A stretch of 64,000 nt of DNA from Planctomycetota bacterium (GTDB taxonomy: Bacteria > Planctomycetota > Planctomycetia > Isosphaerales > Isosphaeraceae), in contig JAJYWB010000023.1 in assembly GCA_021791715.1 (NCBI GenBank), positions 1 through 64,000 of the forward strand, given 5' to 3'. The position numbers were made by a program, and so were the translations under genes. Of the stretch, positions 4,157 to 11,425 are shown piece after piece. The notes beneath the pieces are model-generated. The model saw nothing but the letters and a program-made list of their open reading frames with translations. It was not told where the DNA came from and ran no database searches. Each line of letters begins with the position of its first letter. Within the stretch, counting starts at the first letter, position 1.

Positions 4157-5515
4157 ATGTCGGGAATCGATCGACGAGAGTTCGCCAGGCGATCGGCGAT
4201 GACGGGATTGGGAGGGATCGCGGCGTCGGTGTTCGCCTCGGGTCGTGTGATGGGGGCGGCGGATCGCGTACGTCTCGGCGTGATCGGAGTGGGGAATCGC
4301 GGCGATCAGGTGATCGACGCTTTTTTGCGCCATAAGGATTGCGAGATCATCGCGATCAGCGATCTTCACGAGCCGTATCTCGACGCCGCGAGCCGAAAGA
4401 TCGGCGGCGAACCTCAACGGTTCCACGATTATCGCAAGCTGCTCGATCTTAAGGAGGTCGACGCGGTCGTCGTCGCGACGCCCGATCACTGGCACGCTCT
4501 TCAAACGATTCACGCGTTTCAATCCGGCAAAGATGTATATGTGGAGAAGCCGCTCTCTTTGACGGTCGCGGAGGGGCGAAGGATGGCTGAAGCGGCGCGG
4601 CGGTACGATCGCGTGACGCAGGTGGGGATTATGCGGAGGTCGTCGCCGTATCATAAGGAAGCGGCCGAGATCGTTCGTTCGGGAGGGATCGGTCGCGTGA
4701 CGTTCGTTCGAGCGTTTCACCTGCGTAACGAATGGCCCAAGGGGATCGGTTCGTCCGCCGACGGCGATCCTCCCGCGGGTTTCGATTGGGATCGTTGGCT
4801 CGGGCCCGCGCCGCTGAAACGTTACAACAAGAATCGCACGTTTTATCGGTTTCGCTGGTTTTACGATTACTCGGGCGGGCAGTTGACGAATTTTGGGGTT
4901 CATTATTTGGATATGATTCATTGGGCGTTGGGACGCGATGCGCCTACGGCGGTCGCGGCGATGGGAGGGAAGTTCGCGATTCAGGATAATCGCGAGATTC
5001 CCGATACGCTTGAAGTGATCTGGCGGTATCCCGACGATACGCTCGTTACATTTACACAGATCAACACAAATGCCGCCGCGCCGGGAGCGAAACACGGCGA
5101 GATTGAATTTCGCGGAACGAAAGGGACGCTTTATGTGACGAACGGCGGCTATCAGGTCGTTCCGGAGGCGCTTTCGGCGAACGAGGTTCCCGCGCTCTCG
5201 CCGCTCGATCGTTCGCTCGAGCGCGGTCATAGGGCTGGAGCGAAGCCCGTGATTGAAGGGGTCGAGAAGAATTCCCCCGACGCGACGACGCTTCACGCGC
5301 GTAATTTCCTCGATTGCGTGAAGAGCCGAGAACGTTGTCATTGCGATATCGAGACGGGGCGGCGATCGACGAACGCGGCGCTCATCGGCAATATTGCGCT
5401 CAAAATGAACGCACTTCTCGAATGGGACGCCAAAGCGGAAAGGTTTACGAATCTCGAGGCGGCGAATAAACATCTTAGCTACACGTACCGAGCGCCTTAC
5501 GTTTTGCCCGAATGA
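4157..5515 (+). CDS. Tat-exported Gfo/Idh/MocA family oxidoreductase
   Basis: 452-aa NAD(P)-dependent sugar-type dehydrogenase. The N-terminus has a twin-arginine signal ([13 protein letters not shown], cleaved probably near VMGAA). A Rossmann motif GVGNRG follows at about residues 45-50, the family's catalytic EKP motif at about 130-132, and the C-terminal barrel half includes [15 protein letters not shown]. The ATG at 4157 is chosen over an upstream TTG at 4142 because it gives the usual Tat signal length and GGGA lies about 10 bases upstream. Planctomycetes carry many such exported paralogs. The substrate is unknown, presumably a sugar derivative. It stands alone, 108 bp before the sulfite oxidase operon. 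Confidence 0.9.
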
Positions 5516-5623: not shown

Positions 5624-6817
5624 ATGAATAGACGAGATTGGATTCGTGCGACGGCGGCGGCCGCGGCGGCGGGATTCGCGCCCGGCTTCGTGGGATGCGG
5701 CGTGCGAGAGTCTGGCTCGGGGGTCGATCCCGAGCCGACGGTGCGTTTTCCCGGCAAGGTCGAGATGCGGGTGATCAACGATCGTCCACCGTGCCTGGAA
5801 ACTCCGTGGCGATTTTATCGCGAGGATTTCACGCCCAATCACGCGTTTTACGTGCGCTGGCATTTACAAGCGTTTCCGACGTCGATCGATCTTGCGAGCT
5901 GGCGGCTGAGGATCGGCGGGAACGTGGAAAGGCCGCTCGAGCTTTCGATCGACGATCTCAAAAAGATGGATCGGACGACGATCGCCGCGGTCAACCAATG
6001 TTCGGGGAATTCTCGTTCGCTGTTTCAGCCGAGGGTTACGGGGGCGCAGTGGAGGAACGGCGCGATGGGAAACGCCAAATGGACGGGCGTTCGTCTCAGG
6101 GATTTGCTTAAGCGAGCGGGTTTGAAAGCGGGCGCGGTCGACGTCGTTTTCGACGGGCTCGACGAGGGGCCGTTGCCCGGCGTGCCCGATTTTCTCAAAT
6201 CGCTCAAGGCGGATCATGCGCTCGAGGCCGAGCCGCTCGTCGCTTTTGAGATGAACGGCGAGCCGCTTCCGGCGCTCAACGGTTTTCCCGCCAGGCTCGT
6301 TGTACCCGGCTGGTACGCCACGTATTGGGTTAAGGCGCTAACAAAAATTGAAGTTTGGGATAAATCATATGACGGCTATTGGATGGCGAAGGCTTATAAG
6401 ATTCCGGCGAACCCGCGCGCGAACGAATCGCCCGATCGACTCGACGCCAAAATTGAACCGATCAATCGTTTGAATGTTCGATCGTTCTTTACTTCACCCG
6501 ATCGCGGATCGATCGTCGTTTCGGGGACACCGATTACATTATCGGGAATCGCGTTCGACGGCGGGAGCGGGATCAAACGGGTGGAGGTTTCGTTTGACGA
6601 CGGTCGCACGTGGCGTGAAACGATGTTGGGAGAGGATCACGGACGGTTCTCGTTCCGCCGCTGGAAACTCGAATGGACGCCGACGGAGGCGGGAGAGCGT
6701 AAATTGCTGGTCCGCGCGACGAATCGGAGCGACGAGACGCAAACCGCCGATCCGATCTGGAATCGCGGAGGATTTATGCGTAACGTGATCGAATCGCTCG
6801 CGGTCGTCGTCGTGTAA
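5624..6817 (+). CDS. Sulfite oxidase-type molybdopterin oxidoreductase (SorA-like)
   Basis: 397-aa exported molybdoenzyme. Signal: MNRRDWIRAT followed by a run of alanines, i.e. twin-arginine, with FVGCG at 22-26 that could also serve as a lipobox. The catalytic oxidoreductase molybdopterin domain spans about 50-260, with the molybdenum-ligand cysteine at C126 in NQCSGNSR. The C-terminal Mo-co dimerisation (Ig-like) domain spans about 275-390. It probably oxidises sulfite, or a related substrate, in the periplasm and passes electrons to the cytochrome encoded 19 bp downstream. It heads a tight run SorA-like, SorB-like, oxidase, 42-aa peptide. Substrate specificity cannot be proved from sequence; sulfite is the family's best match. 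Confidence 0.88.
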   Translation: MNRRDWIRATAAAAAAGFAPGFVGCGVRESGSGVDPEPTVRFPGKVEMRVINDRPPCLETPWRFYREDFTPNHAFYVRWHLQAFPTSIDLASWRLRIGGNVERPLELSIDDLKKMDRTTIAAVNQCSGNSRSLFQPRVTGAQWRNGAMGNAKWTGVRLRDLLKRAGLKAGAVDVVFDGLDEGPLPGVPDFLKSLKADHALEAEPLVAFEMNGEPLPALNGFPARLVVPGWYATYWVKALTKIEVWDKSYDGYWMAKAYKIPANPRANESPDRLDAKIEPINRLNVRSFFTSPDRGSIVVSGTPITLSGIAFDGGSGIKRVEVSFDDGRTWRETMLGEDHGRFSFRRWKLEWTPTEAGERKLLVRATNRSDETQTADPIWNRGGFMRNVIESLAVVVV

Positions 6818-6836
6818 TTTGCTCAAGGATTTAAGA

Positions 6837-7226
6837 ATGAAAGAACGAATGAGGAACGCCGGCGGATTTCCGCTCGTCGCGACCGGGGCGCTGGGGATTC
6901 TGTCGGCGTGGGTCTCGTATCTGGGGGTGCGGGATTATTGGGATTCGTCGACGCCGAACGTTCCCGAGATCGTCGCGACGAACGTTTTATTACCTTATGA
7001 AGAGGTTCACATACCGGACGGGCCGAATCGCGTCGTTTTTCAAACTTCTTGCGTGATTTGTCATTCGCCGCGATTGATATTTGGACAGCCGACGATATCG
7101 GAGGCGAAATGGCTCGAGGTCGTGAATAAGATGGTCGCGACCTACGGCGCGCCGATTGAACCCGAGGACGAGCGTAAGATTGTCGCGTATCTGGTATCGG
7201 TTCAGGCCGATCGAGGTGATCGATGA
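6837..7226 (+). CDS. Membrane-anchored monohaem cytochrome c (SorB-like)
   Basis: 129-aa protein with one N-terminal hydrophobic segment (about 11-30) and one haem c site, CVICH at residues 72-76. The likely axial Met is in VNKMVATYG near 95. Size and position directly after the molybdoenzyme match the cytochrome subunit of SorAB-type sulfite dehydrogenases. The ATG at 6837 is chosen over TTG at 6819 because AAGGA lies 8 bases upstream. The stop codon overlaps the next start (ATGA at 7223-7226), so it is translationally coupled to the oxidase. It should pass electrons from the molybdoenzyme to the c-type haems of that oxidase. Confidence 0.85.
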   Translation: MKERMRNAGGFPLVATGALGILSAWVSYLGVRDYWDSSTPNVPEIVATNVLLPYEEVHIPDGPNRVVFQTSCVICHSPRLIFGQPTISEAKWLEVVNKMVATYGAPIEPEDERKIVAYLVSVQADRGDR

Positions 7227-9874
7227 ACGTTCGCACCGAAACGCGTTTGATCCGCGCCCACGCGATCGCGGCGCTCCTGGCGGTCGGCTACACGACTTTT
7301 TTGGGGCTGATGATCGCGATCAAGTTTCACGTTCCCGATTGGCTCGGGGGCGAGTCGTGGCTTACGTGGGGACGGTTACGATACGCGCACACGCAGGGAG
7401 TTTTCTTCGGCTGGTTGGGTAATGCTTTTTTGATGTTTTTATATTATGCCGTTCCGCGGCTCGCCGAACGGAATGTGACGAGCCGATCGCTCGGATACGC
7501 GATCTTTTTCGTCTGGAATTTCCTGGTGGTTTTGCCGGGCTGGGCTCTTGTTCAGATGGGGATCAGTCAACCGCTCGAATGGGCCGAGTTTCCGATTCCC
7601 GTCGACGCCGCGGTGATCGTCGCGTTTGTGTTCGCGTGCGTTCAATTCGTCGTCCCGCTGCTTCGATCAAAAATCTCCCATTTATATGTATCCGGTTGGT
7701 ATATCATGGGAGGGTTGATTTTCACGAGTCTCGCGTATCCGGTGGGCAATTTTGTTCCCGAGGTCGTTCCAGGTGCTCGGGGCGCGGCGTTCAGCGGGCT
7801 TTGGATTCACGATGCGATCGGCTTGTACGTCACTCCGCTCGCGCTCGCGATCGCGTATTTGGTGATTCCGATCTCGACGCGCAAGCCTATTTTTAGTCAT
7901 TTTCTCTCGATGATCGGTTTTTGGCTGCTGTTTTTGGTTTACCCGCTTAACGGAACGCATCATTATATTTTTTCTTCGATTCCGATGGAGGCGCAGAAGG
8001 GGGCGATCGTCGCTTCGGTTTACCTGGGGATGGACGTGATTTTGGTGGTCGCCAATCAGCTTCTCTCGTTGCGAGGTTCGGCGGCGAAGGTCGCTTCGGA
8101 CGCTCCGCTCCGGTTCGTGTGGGTCGGAGTCGTCTGTTATTTGATCGTCAGTCTTCAGGGTTCGCTCCAGGCGCTTATGCCTGTGAACCGATTTGTTCAT
8201 TTTAGCGATTGGGTGATCGCTCATGCGCATCTGGCTTTAATCGGTTTTGCTTCGTTCATCGCGATCGGCGGGATGTTGTTCGTTTGGAAGCGATTGGCGG
8301 GTTCGCGATACAATCCTCGCGCGGCTGATTGGGCGTTTTGGCTGCTCGCGATCGGGCTCGCGACGATGTTCCTTGACCTGACGATCGCGGGGCTCGTTCA
8401 GGCGCAATCGTGGTCGTCGCACGCTCCGTGGATCGATTCTGTTCGCGCGTCGCGACCTTATTGGATCGTTCGGTCGTTCTCGGGAGGAGCGATCATTTTG
8501 GCGTTCGTCGCGGTCGCGTTAAGCATGACGACGGGCGCGAGGGTGGAGGCCGAATCCGCCGTCGAGAACGAACCGAGCTCCGACGAGGCCGTGGCGGCTA
8601 TCGTAGGCGAGGACGAGTCCGAAACCGAATCGGACGTTCCGCGGGGTTTAAAAATCCTCACGCATTCTTATGTAGTTATTAGTATCGCGGGTTTGGCGTT
8701 TTTCGCGCTTTCGTTTTTGGTTTTGGCGGTTTTACCCAATCGAAGATTGGCGGACGAGATCGCTCGATCGCGGCCGATCGGCGGGCGGGGGCTTTCGGCG
8801 GCGGAGGCTCGAGGTCGCGCCGTTTACATACGCGAAGGTTGTGTGAATTGTCATTCGCAGTTCGTTCGGTTCGTCGAAGACGACGTCCGTCGGTTTGGAA
8901 TCGCGACCAGGGCTTGGGAGGCGGAACAGGATTCGCCTCAATTGTGGGGTACGAGGCGAGTCGGCCCCGATCTGGCGCGTGAACACGGCAAAAGATCGCT
9001 TGATTGGCATTTGGTGCATCTGTGGAATCCGCGTTACGTTGTTCCCGAATCGCCGATGCCGGGATATCGGAATCTTTTTGATGGATCGCCGAGTGCGCCG
9101 CGGCGCGAAGCGTACGATTTGGCGGCGTATCTCGAATCGCTTGGTCGCGAGGCTCATCTCGCGGGTTTGACTGGGCCTCAGCCTCTTCCTGGAGTCGACC
9201 CGAACGACGAGAAGCGGAAGGGGATGTTTTGCGATTGCGCGATTCCGCGGTCGATCGGCGCGGCGCCGGTTTTTTCGACTCGAGGGCTTGAAGCGAGCGA
9301 ACGTGAGCGATTCGCTCGATCGGGCGCCGAATCGTTCGAGCGGAATTGCGCGGGCTGCCACGGAGAGCGAGGCCGGGGCGACGGTCCCGCCGCGGTCGCG
9401 CTCTTGCCGCGGCCGCGCGATTTAACTTCGGCGCGTTTTTCCGATCGAACGATCGGCGAGGTTTTATGGAACGGTTCGAGGGGTTCGTCGATGCCGGCTT
9501 GGAACGAACTTCCGAGCGAGGAACTTCGCGGACTGACCGCGTTTGTTGGATCTTTATATAATCAAAAATCTGAACAAAAAGACTCTCCGTTACGAGTCGA
9601 CGAGGTCGCGAGGGCGCGGGGGTTGTTCGCGGCGAATTGCGTGGTGTGTCATGGTAAAGAGGGCGCGGGCGACGGGATATCGGCGACGAACCTGGCGCCG
9701 GCGCCTTCGAATTTCCATCGGATCGAGCCGACGCTCGGATACGCCGAGGGGGCGATCGAGCGAGGCGTACCGGGGACGGCGATGCCGACTTGGCGGGATA
9801 AACTTAAAGCGGAAGATCGTGCTTTGCTCGCGCGTTATGTTCGAACGCTTTTTCAACCGATCGAGAAGGATTGA
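7223..9874 (+). CDS. Single-chain cbb3-type cytochrome c oxidase: CcoN + CcoO + two cytochrome c domains
   Basis: 883-aa fusion. Residues 1-440 are a haem-copper oxidase subunit I: low-spin haem ligands H56 and H336/H334 (in HAHLALIG), CuB ligands H196, H246 and H247, and a Tyr at 240. The distances H196 to Y240 (44), to H246 (50) and to H334 (138) equal those I recall for Pseudomonas CcoN (H207, Y251, H257, H345), so the cross-linked Tyr is kept. Residues 480-640 are CcoO-like: one membrane helix, haem c site CVNCH (540-544) and Met ligand in PESPMPGY (612). Residues 690-883 hold two more haem sites, CAGCH (709-713) with M757 and CVVCH (806-810) with M854. An acidic linker lies at 440-475. 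It should reduce O2 at the membrane with electrons from the upstream cytochrome. Confidence 0.92.
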   Translation: MNVRTETRLIRAHAIAALLAVGYTTFLGLMIAIKFHVPDWLGGESWLTWGRLRYAHTQGVFFGWLGNAFLMFLYYAVPRLAERNVTSRSLGYAIFFVWNFLVVLPGWALVQMGISQPLEWAEFPIPVDAAVIVAFVFACVQFVVPLLRSKISHLYVSGWYIMGGLIFTSLAYPVGNFVPEVVPGARGAAFSGLWIHDAIGLYVTPLALAIAYLVIPISTRKPIFSHFLSMIGFWLLFLVYPLNGTHHYIFSSIPMEAQKGAIVASVYLGMDVILVVANQLLSLRGSAAKVASDAPLRFVWVGVVCYLIVSLQGSLQALMPVNRFVHFSDWVIAHAHLALIGFASFIAIGGMLFVWKRLAGSRYNPRAADWAFWLLAIGLATMFLDLTIAGLVQAQSWSSHAPWIDSVRASRPYWIVRSFSGGAIILAFVAVALSMTTGARVEAESAVENEPSSDEAVAAIVGEDESETESDVPRGLKILTHSYVVISIAGLAFFALSFLVLAVLPNRRLADEIARSRPIGGRGLSAAEARGRAVYIREGCVNCHSQFVRFVEDDVRRFGIATRAWEAEQDSPQLWGTRRVGPDLAREHGKRSLDWHLVHLWNPRYVVPESPMPGYRNLFDGSPSAPRREAYDLAAYLESLGREAHLAGLTGPQPLPGVDPNDEKRKGMFCDCAIPRSIGAAPVFSTRGLEASERERFARSGAESFERNCAGCHGERGRGDGPAAVALLPRPRDLTSARFSDRTIGEVLWNGSRGSSMPAWNELPSEELRGLTAFVGSLYNQKSEQKDSPLRVDEVARARGLFAANCVVCHGKEGAGDGISATNLAPAPSNFHRIEPTLGYAEGAIERGVPGTAMPTWRDKLKAEDRALLARYVRTLFQPIEKD

Positions 9875-9879
9875 TTCCG

Positions 9880-10008
9880 ATGGCGATCAATTGGATTATG
9901 ACGGCGATCACGGCGATGATGATCGGTTTCACGATCTTGTGGTCGCTCGGCGGCGAGACGAGGCGACGGATCGAGGCGCCGAAATATCGTCCGCTCAAAT
10001 GGAAATAA
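9880..10008 (+). CDS. 42-aa single-span membrane peptide, candidate oxidase subunit
   Basis: Short ORF beginning 5 bp after the oxidase stop codon, with GAAGGA about 9 bases upstream of its ATG. The product starts MAINWIMTAITAMMIGF, has one predicted membrane helix (about 5-23) and a basic tail ending PKYRPLKWK. Position and topology resemble CcoQ, the tiny subunit encoded between ccoO and ccoP in classical cbb3 operons, but I recognise no sequence signature; a role in oxidase assembly or stability is inferred from context. Confidence 0.6.
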   Translation: MAINWIMTAITAMMIGFTILWSLGGETRRRIEAPKYRPLKWK

Positions 10009-10159
10009 GAACGATTATCGATCTTGATTTTCCCGAGTCGAGTCGCCTTGAAGGCGGATCGCACGGATCGGTTCGGTTACGATCTTATGGTCGTTCGATC
10101 GGCGCGGGTCGGGCGTTCGTTCCCGCGGCGAAGAGCAAGATACATTGAGGAATACGCAC

Positions 10160-11425
10160 TTGAGCGAAGAGCGATCGATCATCCGGATCGTGGGGATCGG
10201 CGACGACGGGCTCGCGGGTCTGACCGAATCGGCGCGGCGGATCTTGGCCGAGGCCGATGTTTTACTGGCTTCGGCGGGAACGCTCGAGTTGCTGGGCTCG
10301 CTTCCGGGCAAGAAGGTGGCGCTCGCCGCCGAGATGCGCGACGCGGTGAAGCAGGTTTTGGAGATCGAACGATCGCGTCGACCGGTGCTGGTGACGGGGG
10401 GCGATCCGCTGTTTTACGGCGTCGCTCGATATTTGTGCGACCGACTGGGGAAGGATCGGTTCGAGGTCGTGCCGCATGTCAGCAGCATGCAGCTCGCGTT
10501 CGCGCGGATCAAAGAGAGCTGGGAAGACGCGTATCTGACGAACCTCGCGGGTCGACCGCTCGAAACCGTCGTCGATCGAATCCGCACGGCAGAAAAAGTC
10601 GGCATGTTTTCAAGTGATGAATGTTCGCCCGCGGTCGTGGCTCGCGCCCTGCTTGATCGCGGGATCGATTATTTTCGCGGTTATGTGTGCGAGAATTTGG
10701 GCTCTCCCGACGAGCGAGTGACGCAGGGGGAGCTCGGCGAGATCGCCGGGCTTGATTTCGCACCTTTGAATGTGATGATATTGGTTCGGAAGCCGAATCG
10801 TCCCGATCGCGCCGGTCGCGTCGGCCGGTATCGATTATTCGGGAATCCCGACGACGTTTTCGCGCAGAGCAAGCCCAAACGGGGGTTGATCACCCAGGCC
10901 GAGGTACGCGCAATCGCGCTTTCGCAATTGGATATTAGGCCGACGAGCGTCGTTTGGGACGTCGGCGCGGGTTCGGGGTCGGTCGCGATCGAGGCGGCGC
11001 AGTTGGCGAATCAGGGGATGGTTTACGCGATCGAGCCCGAGCCCGGCGATTTGGCGTTGATTCAGGCGAACGCCGAGGCGTTCGGCGTGCCGAACGTTCG
11101 GCCGATCGCGGGGAGGGCGCCCGAGGCTCTCGCGGGCTTGCCCGATCCCGACGCGATTTTTGTCGGCGGCACGGGTCGCCGGGTCGACGCGGTTTTGCGA
11201 GCGACTTTCGATCGCTTGAATCCCGGCGGCAAGCTTGCTGTTAACGTTGCGACGATCGACGGATTGGCGGCTTCGATCGCGACGTTGAAGGAGCTCGCGG
11301 GGCGTGTCGACGTTTGGAACGTGGCGATTTCGCGGGGGATCGAGCAGATGGATCGCGTCCGATTCGAGGCTGTGAACCCGACTTTTCTGCTCGCCGTGAT
11401 TAAGAATCCGCCGCCGACCGATTAA
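10160..11425 (+). CDS. cobL: Precorrin-6Y C5,15-methyltransferase (CbiE-CbiT fusion)
   Basis: 421-aa bifunctional enzyme of cobalamin (corrin) biosynthesis. It methylates precorrin-6B/cobalt-precorrin at C5 and C15 using SAM and decarboxylates the acetate side chain. N-terminal CbiE domain about 1-200 (GIGDDGL, SMQLAFARI, ENLGSPDERV); C-terminal CbiT domain about 215-421 with the SAM motif DVGAGSGSVAIEAA and GGTGRR. A TTG start at 10160 is preferred because GAGGAA lies 8 bases upstream; an in-frame TTG at 10145 is the alternative. No other corrin gene and no B12 riboswitch is visible in the window, so it is isolated from its pathway here. Confidence 0.9.
   Translation: MSEERSIIRIVGIGDDGLAGLTESARRILAEADVLLASAGTLELLGSLPGKKVALAAEMRDAVKQVLEIERSRRPVLVTGGDPLFYGVARYLCDRLGKDRFEVVPHVSSMQLAFARIKESWEDAYLTNLAGRPLETVVDRIRTAEKVGMFSSDECSPAVVARALLDRGIDYFRGYVCENLGSPDERVTQGELGEIAGLDFAPLNVMILVRKPNRPDRAGRVGRYRLFGNPDDVFAQSKPKRGLITQAEVRAIALSQLDIRPTSVVWDVGAGSGSVAIEAAQLANQGMVYAIEPEPGDLALIQANAEAFGVPNVRPIAGRAPEALAGLPDPDAIFVGGTGRRVDAVLRATFDRLNPGGKLAVNVATIDGLAASIATLKELAGRVDVWNVAISRGIEQMDRVRFEAVNPTFLLAVIKNPPPTD

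Follow-up and report, generated by a model that had tools for sequence, protein, structure and literature searches.

We consider it probable that four consecutive genes of a Planctomycetota bacterium constitute one operon for a membrane-tethered sulfite:O2 chain, whose oxidase would represent a subfamily dedicated to periplasmic sulfur dehydrogenases. The genes lie in the window, that is, the whole stretch of 64,000 nucleotides that was analysed, taken from an assembly of 6.5 Mb in 145 contigs whose closest named kin are planctomycetes, and comprise the following features.

5624-6817, + strand: SorA-like molybdopterin subunit of a periplasmic sulfite dehydrogenase (397 aa; Oxidored_molyb and Mo-co_dimer domains; assigned from NCBIfam and PDB)
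ATG at 6837 to stop at 7226, + strand: SorB-like monoheme cytochrome c (CVICH; assigned from NCBIfam SorB and 2blf_B)
7223-9874, + strand: CcoN-CcoO-CcoP fusion, a C-type (cbb3-like) haem-copper oxidase (883 aa; assigned from domains and Foldseek)
7793-7813, + strand: codons of the CuB-loop signature S191-G-L-W-I-H-D197 (from the alignment to P. stutzeri, QWWYGHN)
9880-10008, + strand: single-helix peptide, candidate CcoQ-like small subunit with a conserved ExPK motif (42 aa; weak FixQ match)

The four genes run head to tail on the + strand, with 19 bp between the first two, an overlap of 4 bases (7223-7226) between the second and the third, and 5 bp before the peptide gene, and the open reading frames and the sequence agree exactly with the arrangement claimed in the earlier note. 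A purine-rich, ribosome-binding-like stretch can be recognised by eye before each of the four starts. Neither neighbour of the block looks related to it: on the 5' side the gene of a Gfo/Idh/MocA oxidoreductase stops at 5515, and just 3' of the block CbiE and CbiT (cobalamin C5,15-methyltransferase) share a single ORF (10145-11425). Elsewhere in the window, two adjacent and nearly alike ORFs of 187 aa on the - strand (829-1392 and 1441-2004), both starting with MSTASTTTEP, are an apparent tandem duplication. The four genes would be co-transcribed in the proposed operon; a promoter and terminator scan returned 2 promoter-like sites (1.4 in shuffles) and 13 terminator-like sites (9.4 in shuffles), none of which was reliable at the operon ends.

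The order of the electron carriers is known for SorAB and for cbb3 systems, and the path from sulfite to O2 proposed here is inferred from them. SorA, exported by Tat and probably lipid-anchored, would oxidise periplasmic sulfite to sulfate at its Mo centre, and the electrons would pass from Mo to the haem c of a membrane-anchored SorB. From SorB, either in a direct step or across a very small gap within a presumed complex, they would go on to the CcoP and CcoO parts with their three haems c, and continue through haem b to the b3/CuB site, where O2 would be reduced, possibly with proton pumping. The 42-aa peptide would serve as a CcoQ-like small subunit, and the partners of the oxidase subfamily would be SorAB in most sampled lineages and TsdA(B) in two others.

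The fused oxidase carries, in order, COX1 (CcoN), FixO (CcoO) and two cytochrome c domains, with the Pfam cut-offs for COX1 and FixO passed and a score of 191.2 bits to TIGR00780 (CcoN), below the cut-off of 583. Its CxxCH motifs at residues 540, 709 and 806 define monoheme and diheme cytochrome c parts, and three such motifs are found in all 44 family rows in which N, O and P are readable (32 fused NOP and 12 N/OP). The haem and CuB histidine ligands and the catalytic tyrosine occupy the cbb3 positions (H56, H196, Y240, H246, H247, H334 and H336). We take this tyrosine to be the criterion that separates O2 reductases from NO reductase, and its presence rules out the latter identity. An AlphaFold2 model built from 26 sequences (mean pLDDT 78.8) has cbb3 CcoN chains as its top Foldseek matches, with a target TM of 0.86-0.88. 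In the model a long helix (474-516) precedes the CcoO part, and no equally long one connects CcoO to the diheme part; as modelled, the diheme part therefore seems to have no membrane helix of its own. The enzyme thus shares its fold, metal ligands, catalytic tyrosine and subunit types with canonical cbb3 (CcoNOQP, P. stutzeri 3mk7), but differs from it in being fused, in having, as modelled, no long helix before the diheme part, in its long tree branch, far from the ordinary cbb3 enzymes of the same genome, and in its CuB loop, SGLWIHD instead of the QWWYGHN of P. stutzeri CcoN. Loop positions 202-205, 207 and 208 (P. stutzeri numbering; I195 lies outside the tally) show no variation among the aligned family rows (50 of 50), and all seven positions are likewise constant in a 26-row alignment; these residue counts, like the CcoN trees below, leave out L038 (same contig as L073) and the fragments L109 and L115. 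Except for the histidine, the six tallied positions differ from those in this genome's two ordinary cbb3 proteins, one of which has Thr at 202. A Glu323-to-Gln replacement (Q312) was dropped as a family trait, one canonical enzyme of the same genome also having Q.

The altered loop, constant across the family and absent from the two cbb3 enzymes of the same genome, is what would be expected if the block mainly detoxified sulfite, with an oxidase resistant to sulfur species sparing the main oxidases. We regard this explanation as rather unlikely, the three haems c and the complete O2-reducing site fitting energy conservation too; it would in any case be compatible with a dedicated chain.

Downstream of the oxidase, an ORF of 30-110 aa that combines a hydrophobic run with P[KNR][YHFQ], a motif which the search itself required, was found in 41 of the 45 loci examined, and one of the four misses has just 116 bases left. 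An alignment of 12 members shows no variation at the E, P and K of ExPK. FixQ (PF05545) is matched weakly by two of these 12 (best E 0.0022), and the window peptide itself has no FixQ match; since these matches are weak, the CcoQ-like label is a guess from position and size.

Both subunits of the dehydrogenase bear signs of membrane anchoring. The SorA-like protein begins with a Tat signal, after which comes a lipobox-like Cys (RR...GFVGC). Scored with a simple pattern of our own rather than a signal-peptide program, the combination of a Tat-like RR with a downstream small residue plus Cys is present in 27 of 30 oxidase-linked rows, in one of 13 unlinked SorA-clade rows, namely the contig-cut L039, and in none of seven SorT-like rows; the lipobox-like Cys is absent from SorA of three oxidase-linked loci (L097, L098 and L109). 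To judge from these N-termini, SorA is probably exported by Tat and lipid-anchored. The SorB-like protein has a single CxxCH and an N-terminal hydrophobic stretch, and by eye many SorB rows have either such a stretch or a lipobox-like Cys. It scores 62 bits to NCBIfam SorB, under the cut-off of 93 and still clearly its best match, and its best solved relative is S. novella SorB (2blf_B, E 2.2e-5). An additional monoheme cytochrome c gene lies between sorB and the oxidase gene in many loci of Acidobacteriota, Melainabacteria and Pseudomonas (for example L079 7417-7926, L084 7409-7951 and L098 7436-7942); it has no tblastn match in the planctomycete loci.

The conservation of the gene order was examined from both ends. 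A search of 392 Planctomycetota genomes with the SorA model matched 158, mostly weakly, with 20 over 400 bits, and wider flanks were inspected for part of these matches. Besides the window, the full four-gene block occurs in G377, which is of the same family, and in G048, from a different family within the class. It is absent at the SorA flanks of G302, G149, G178, G106, G168, G316, G122, G370, G292, G195, G382 and G308, and in G097 the contig ends just after SorB. Judged by eye from the matches listed, no contig with a SorA match above 400 bits also carries an ordinary CcoN. In the mostly 3-5 Mb planctomycete genomes of family f46 (L042-L049 and L059), SorA and SorB are present but this oxidase is not, the SorA of L059 being in two pieces. 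Searching 384 Planctomycetota genomes with the oxidase alignment, we found that three reach the family score (over 1700 bits; next best 460), and SorAB stands beside the oxidase in all three.

Beyond this phylum, a scan of GTDB contigs with the oxidase alignment and two 8-residue peptide patterns, blind to the partner, gathered 51 loci; divergent members will have been missed owing to the short patterns. SorA and SorB precede the oxidase on the same strand in 32 of the 51 (13 Planctomycetota, 10 Melainabacteria or related Cyanobacteriota, 6 Acidobacteriota, 2 Pseudomonas and 1 Carideicomes, Paracoccaceae), with SorA cut by the contig start in L082, L088 and L114. At 16 of the remaining 19 loci tblastn identified TsdA, an assignment borne out by Pfam SoxA-TsdA in four of four tested and by PDB TsdA/TsdBA in two of two tested; in eight of these 16 a TsdB-like diheme cytochrome is encoded upstream as well. 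The other three are undecidable, since the sequences of L080 and L085 start within the oxidase or shortly before it and that of L100 stops within it. Each of the 48 decidable loci therefore has exactly one partner, none having both or neither. The 16 TsdA loci amount to about 13 independent ones, and the 48 to about 45, because L107/L108/L117 and L094/L113 are near-identical. This gene order is not due to chance, given that it recurs in loci gathered regardless of partner and in each of the three Planctomycetota genomes, among the 384 searched, that have the oxidase. The earlier note had pointed to SorAB with its own oxidase as unusual, and the pairing is indeed notable and conserved well beyond planctomycetes; the association of the same oxidase family with TsdA extends the picture past what that note had envisaged.

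At the evolutionary level, the likeliest reading is that the dehydrogenase partner of the oxidase subfamily changed at least twice. In a careful CcoN tree of 50 rows, prepared also without the near-copies L108, L117 and L094 and with L080, L085 and L100 uncounted as undecidable, the partner label needs two changes, and among 200 bootstrap trees 0% can do with a single one; support for the order of the deep branches is weak, several values being 50-60. TsdA falls into two groups in this tree, in line with its two positions, either ahead of the oxidase together with TsdB or behind the peptide. In a quick SorA tree, made without bootstrap, the oxidase-linked rows also need two changes, and the oxidase-less planctomycete L037 and the contig-cut L039 lie inside them. 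The Carideicomes locus (L097) pairs with planctomycete G048 (L036) in quick trees of both CcoN (95) and SorA (99), as would be expected if the block had moved as a unit; in the careful tree the bootstrap value of the oxidase pair is just 64%. The distances among SorA rows correlate with those among CcoN rows, with r 0.868 (n 27; 0 of 2000 permutations as high; L038, L082, L088, L102, L109, L112, L114 and L115 left out), and with r 0.88 among planctomycete rows (n 15), a correlation that alone is no proof of coupling because shared species history contributes to it.

In its classical form, SorAB acts as a soluble sulfite:cytochrome c oxidoreductase. It could accordingly be argued that the present SorAB feeds a general periplasmic cytochrome c pool, which the oxidase serves as a whole, and that the genes are linked for co-regulation, for example under sulfite stress. 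For S. novella the locus is given as sigE-orf1-sorAB (PMC3797975), whereas the SorAB of the window is linked to an oxidase. The distribution in Planctomycetota also speaks for a shared pool, as this oxidase is present in just three of the 20 genomes with SorA over 400 bits, and in 11 further such genomes with examined flanks uncut after SorB no such oxidase follows. Against it stand the partner counts (32 SorAB, 16 TsdA, 0 neither), the correlated distances and the anchoring signs on SorA and SorB. Moreover, four further COX1 proteins are encoded in the same genome, so the fused oxidase is an extra one, probably not needed for general respiration. On balance we judge the shared pool to be improbable, and we retain the dedicated chain as the preferred reading.

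That reading presupposes that the molybdoenzyme is a sulfite dehydrogenase. Among all NCBIfam models SorA matches best (505.5 bits), ahead of SorT (183.9), SoxC (161.2) and MsrP/YedY (45.7); the score is under the curated cut-off of NF052245 (600 bits), which is exceeded in none of the 392 Planctomycetota genomes. The best PDB match is S. novella SorA (2blf, E 4.9e-108). Residues R78, H80, C126, R131 and Y258 correspond to R55, H57, C104, R109 and Y236 of S. novella SorA, which we take to be catalytic or active-site residues, and all five are kept. In a quick tree both proteins lie inside the 48-row SorA side (branch value 97). A YedY/MsrP-like methionine sulfoxide reductase or a nitrate reductase, which would make the block unrelated to sulfite, shares the Oxidored_molyb fold, but this identity can be discarded with near certainty, given the gap between the SorA and MsrP scores, E values of only about 1e-19 for nitrate reductase entries, the position in the tree and the adjoining SorB partner. 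The SorA-like identity given in the earlier note is thus borne out and, together with the conserved gene order, lends support to its idea of a self-contained sulfite-to-oxygen chain; neither of the two outcomes which that note named as refuting it, an unconserved order or a grouping with YedY/nitrate reductase, was observed. With S. novella SorAB the window pair has in common the two-subunit Mo and haem c architecture; it differs in scoring below both NCBIfam cut-offs, in the Tat signal and lipobox-like Cys of SorA and in the hydrophobic N-terminus of SorB.

Parts of the system are already in print, since Nitrospina gracilis is reported to have both a triple-fused CcoNOP cbb3 oxidase and SorAB (PMC3578206, PMC10839748). 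As described in the available sections, the former likewise has three fused subunits, one plus two haem c sites and Gly at P. stutzeri position 203 (PMC3578206); its CuB loop is reported with H202, G203 and Y208, whereas the window oxidase has S202, G203 and D208, a comparison made by published residues. The same sections of the two accounts draw no link between the fused oxidase and SorAB. Direct electron donation from TsdB to cbb3 has been proposed as possible (PMC9237845); the accessible part of that work does not describe gene linkage, and the window has SorAB, not TsdA. No description of a SorAB- or TsdA-linked oxidase subfamily was found in the literature searched, a silence that is weak evidence of novelty because most subscription papers fall outside the search. 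What appears to be new here is the conserved pairing of known enzyme types with a divergent oxidase subfamily.

In the usual scheme, sulfite and thiosulfate oxidation delivers its electrons to a common cytochrome pool, and a periplasmic sulfur dehydrogenase beside the oxidase in all 48 decidable loci suggests closed, substrate-specific electron chains. The wider proposition that the subfamily as such is dedicated to sulfur dehydrogenases would draw on these same loci, collected with two short patterns. It can be hypothesised, tentatively, that the subfamily, recognised by SGLWxHD, by three haems c that are fused or linked and by the ExPK peptide, works as a dedicated terminal oxidase for periplasmic sulfur oxyanions in solid-state supercomplexes with interchangeable SorAB or TsdA, its active site altered for inhibitory sulfur species, and that it brings overlooked sulfite/thiosulfate respiration to planctomycetes, acidobacteria and non-photosynthetic cyanobacterial relatives. 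The SGLWxHD loop would then be a sequence marker for sulfur respiration in lineages not usually seen as sulfur oxidisers, and the system lends itself to testing direct dehydrogenase-to-oxidase electron transfer.

A search for a sulfite source in the same genome gave matches below cut-off for the Xsc and SoxB models, and cysteine dioxygenase was absent. The SoxB-like protein (286.7 bits, cut-off 550) is encoded beside a small secreted protein that appears DsrE-like by eye (L130, 8603-10237 and 10253-10837, - strand). In Pseudomonas khorasanensis the oxidase gene (L109, about 7941-9387) seems frame-broken, with matches in three pieces in different frames. In Acetobacteraceae and Paraburkholderia (L107, L108, L117; L132, L133), TsdBA-linked oxidase copies are located on plasmids or on contigs resembling plasmids, near DsrE-family and substrate-binding genes and, in Paraburkholderia, YeeE/YedE. 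For Paraburkholderia fungorum and Acetobacter ascendens, the plasmid records have the order cytochrome-cytochrome-CcoN-CcoO(P)-peptide, and the annotation of these genes there names no more than c-type cytochromes, cbb3 subunits and a hypothetical protein.
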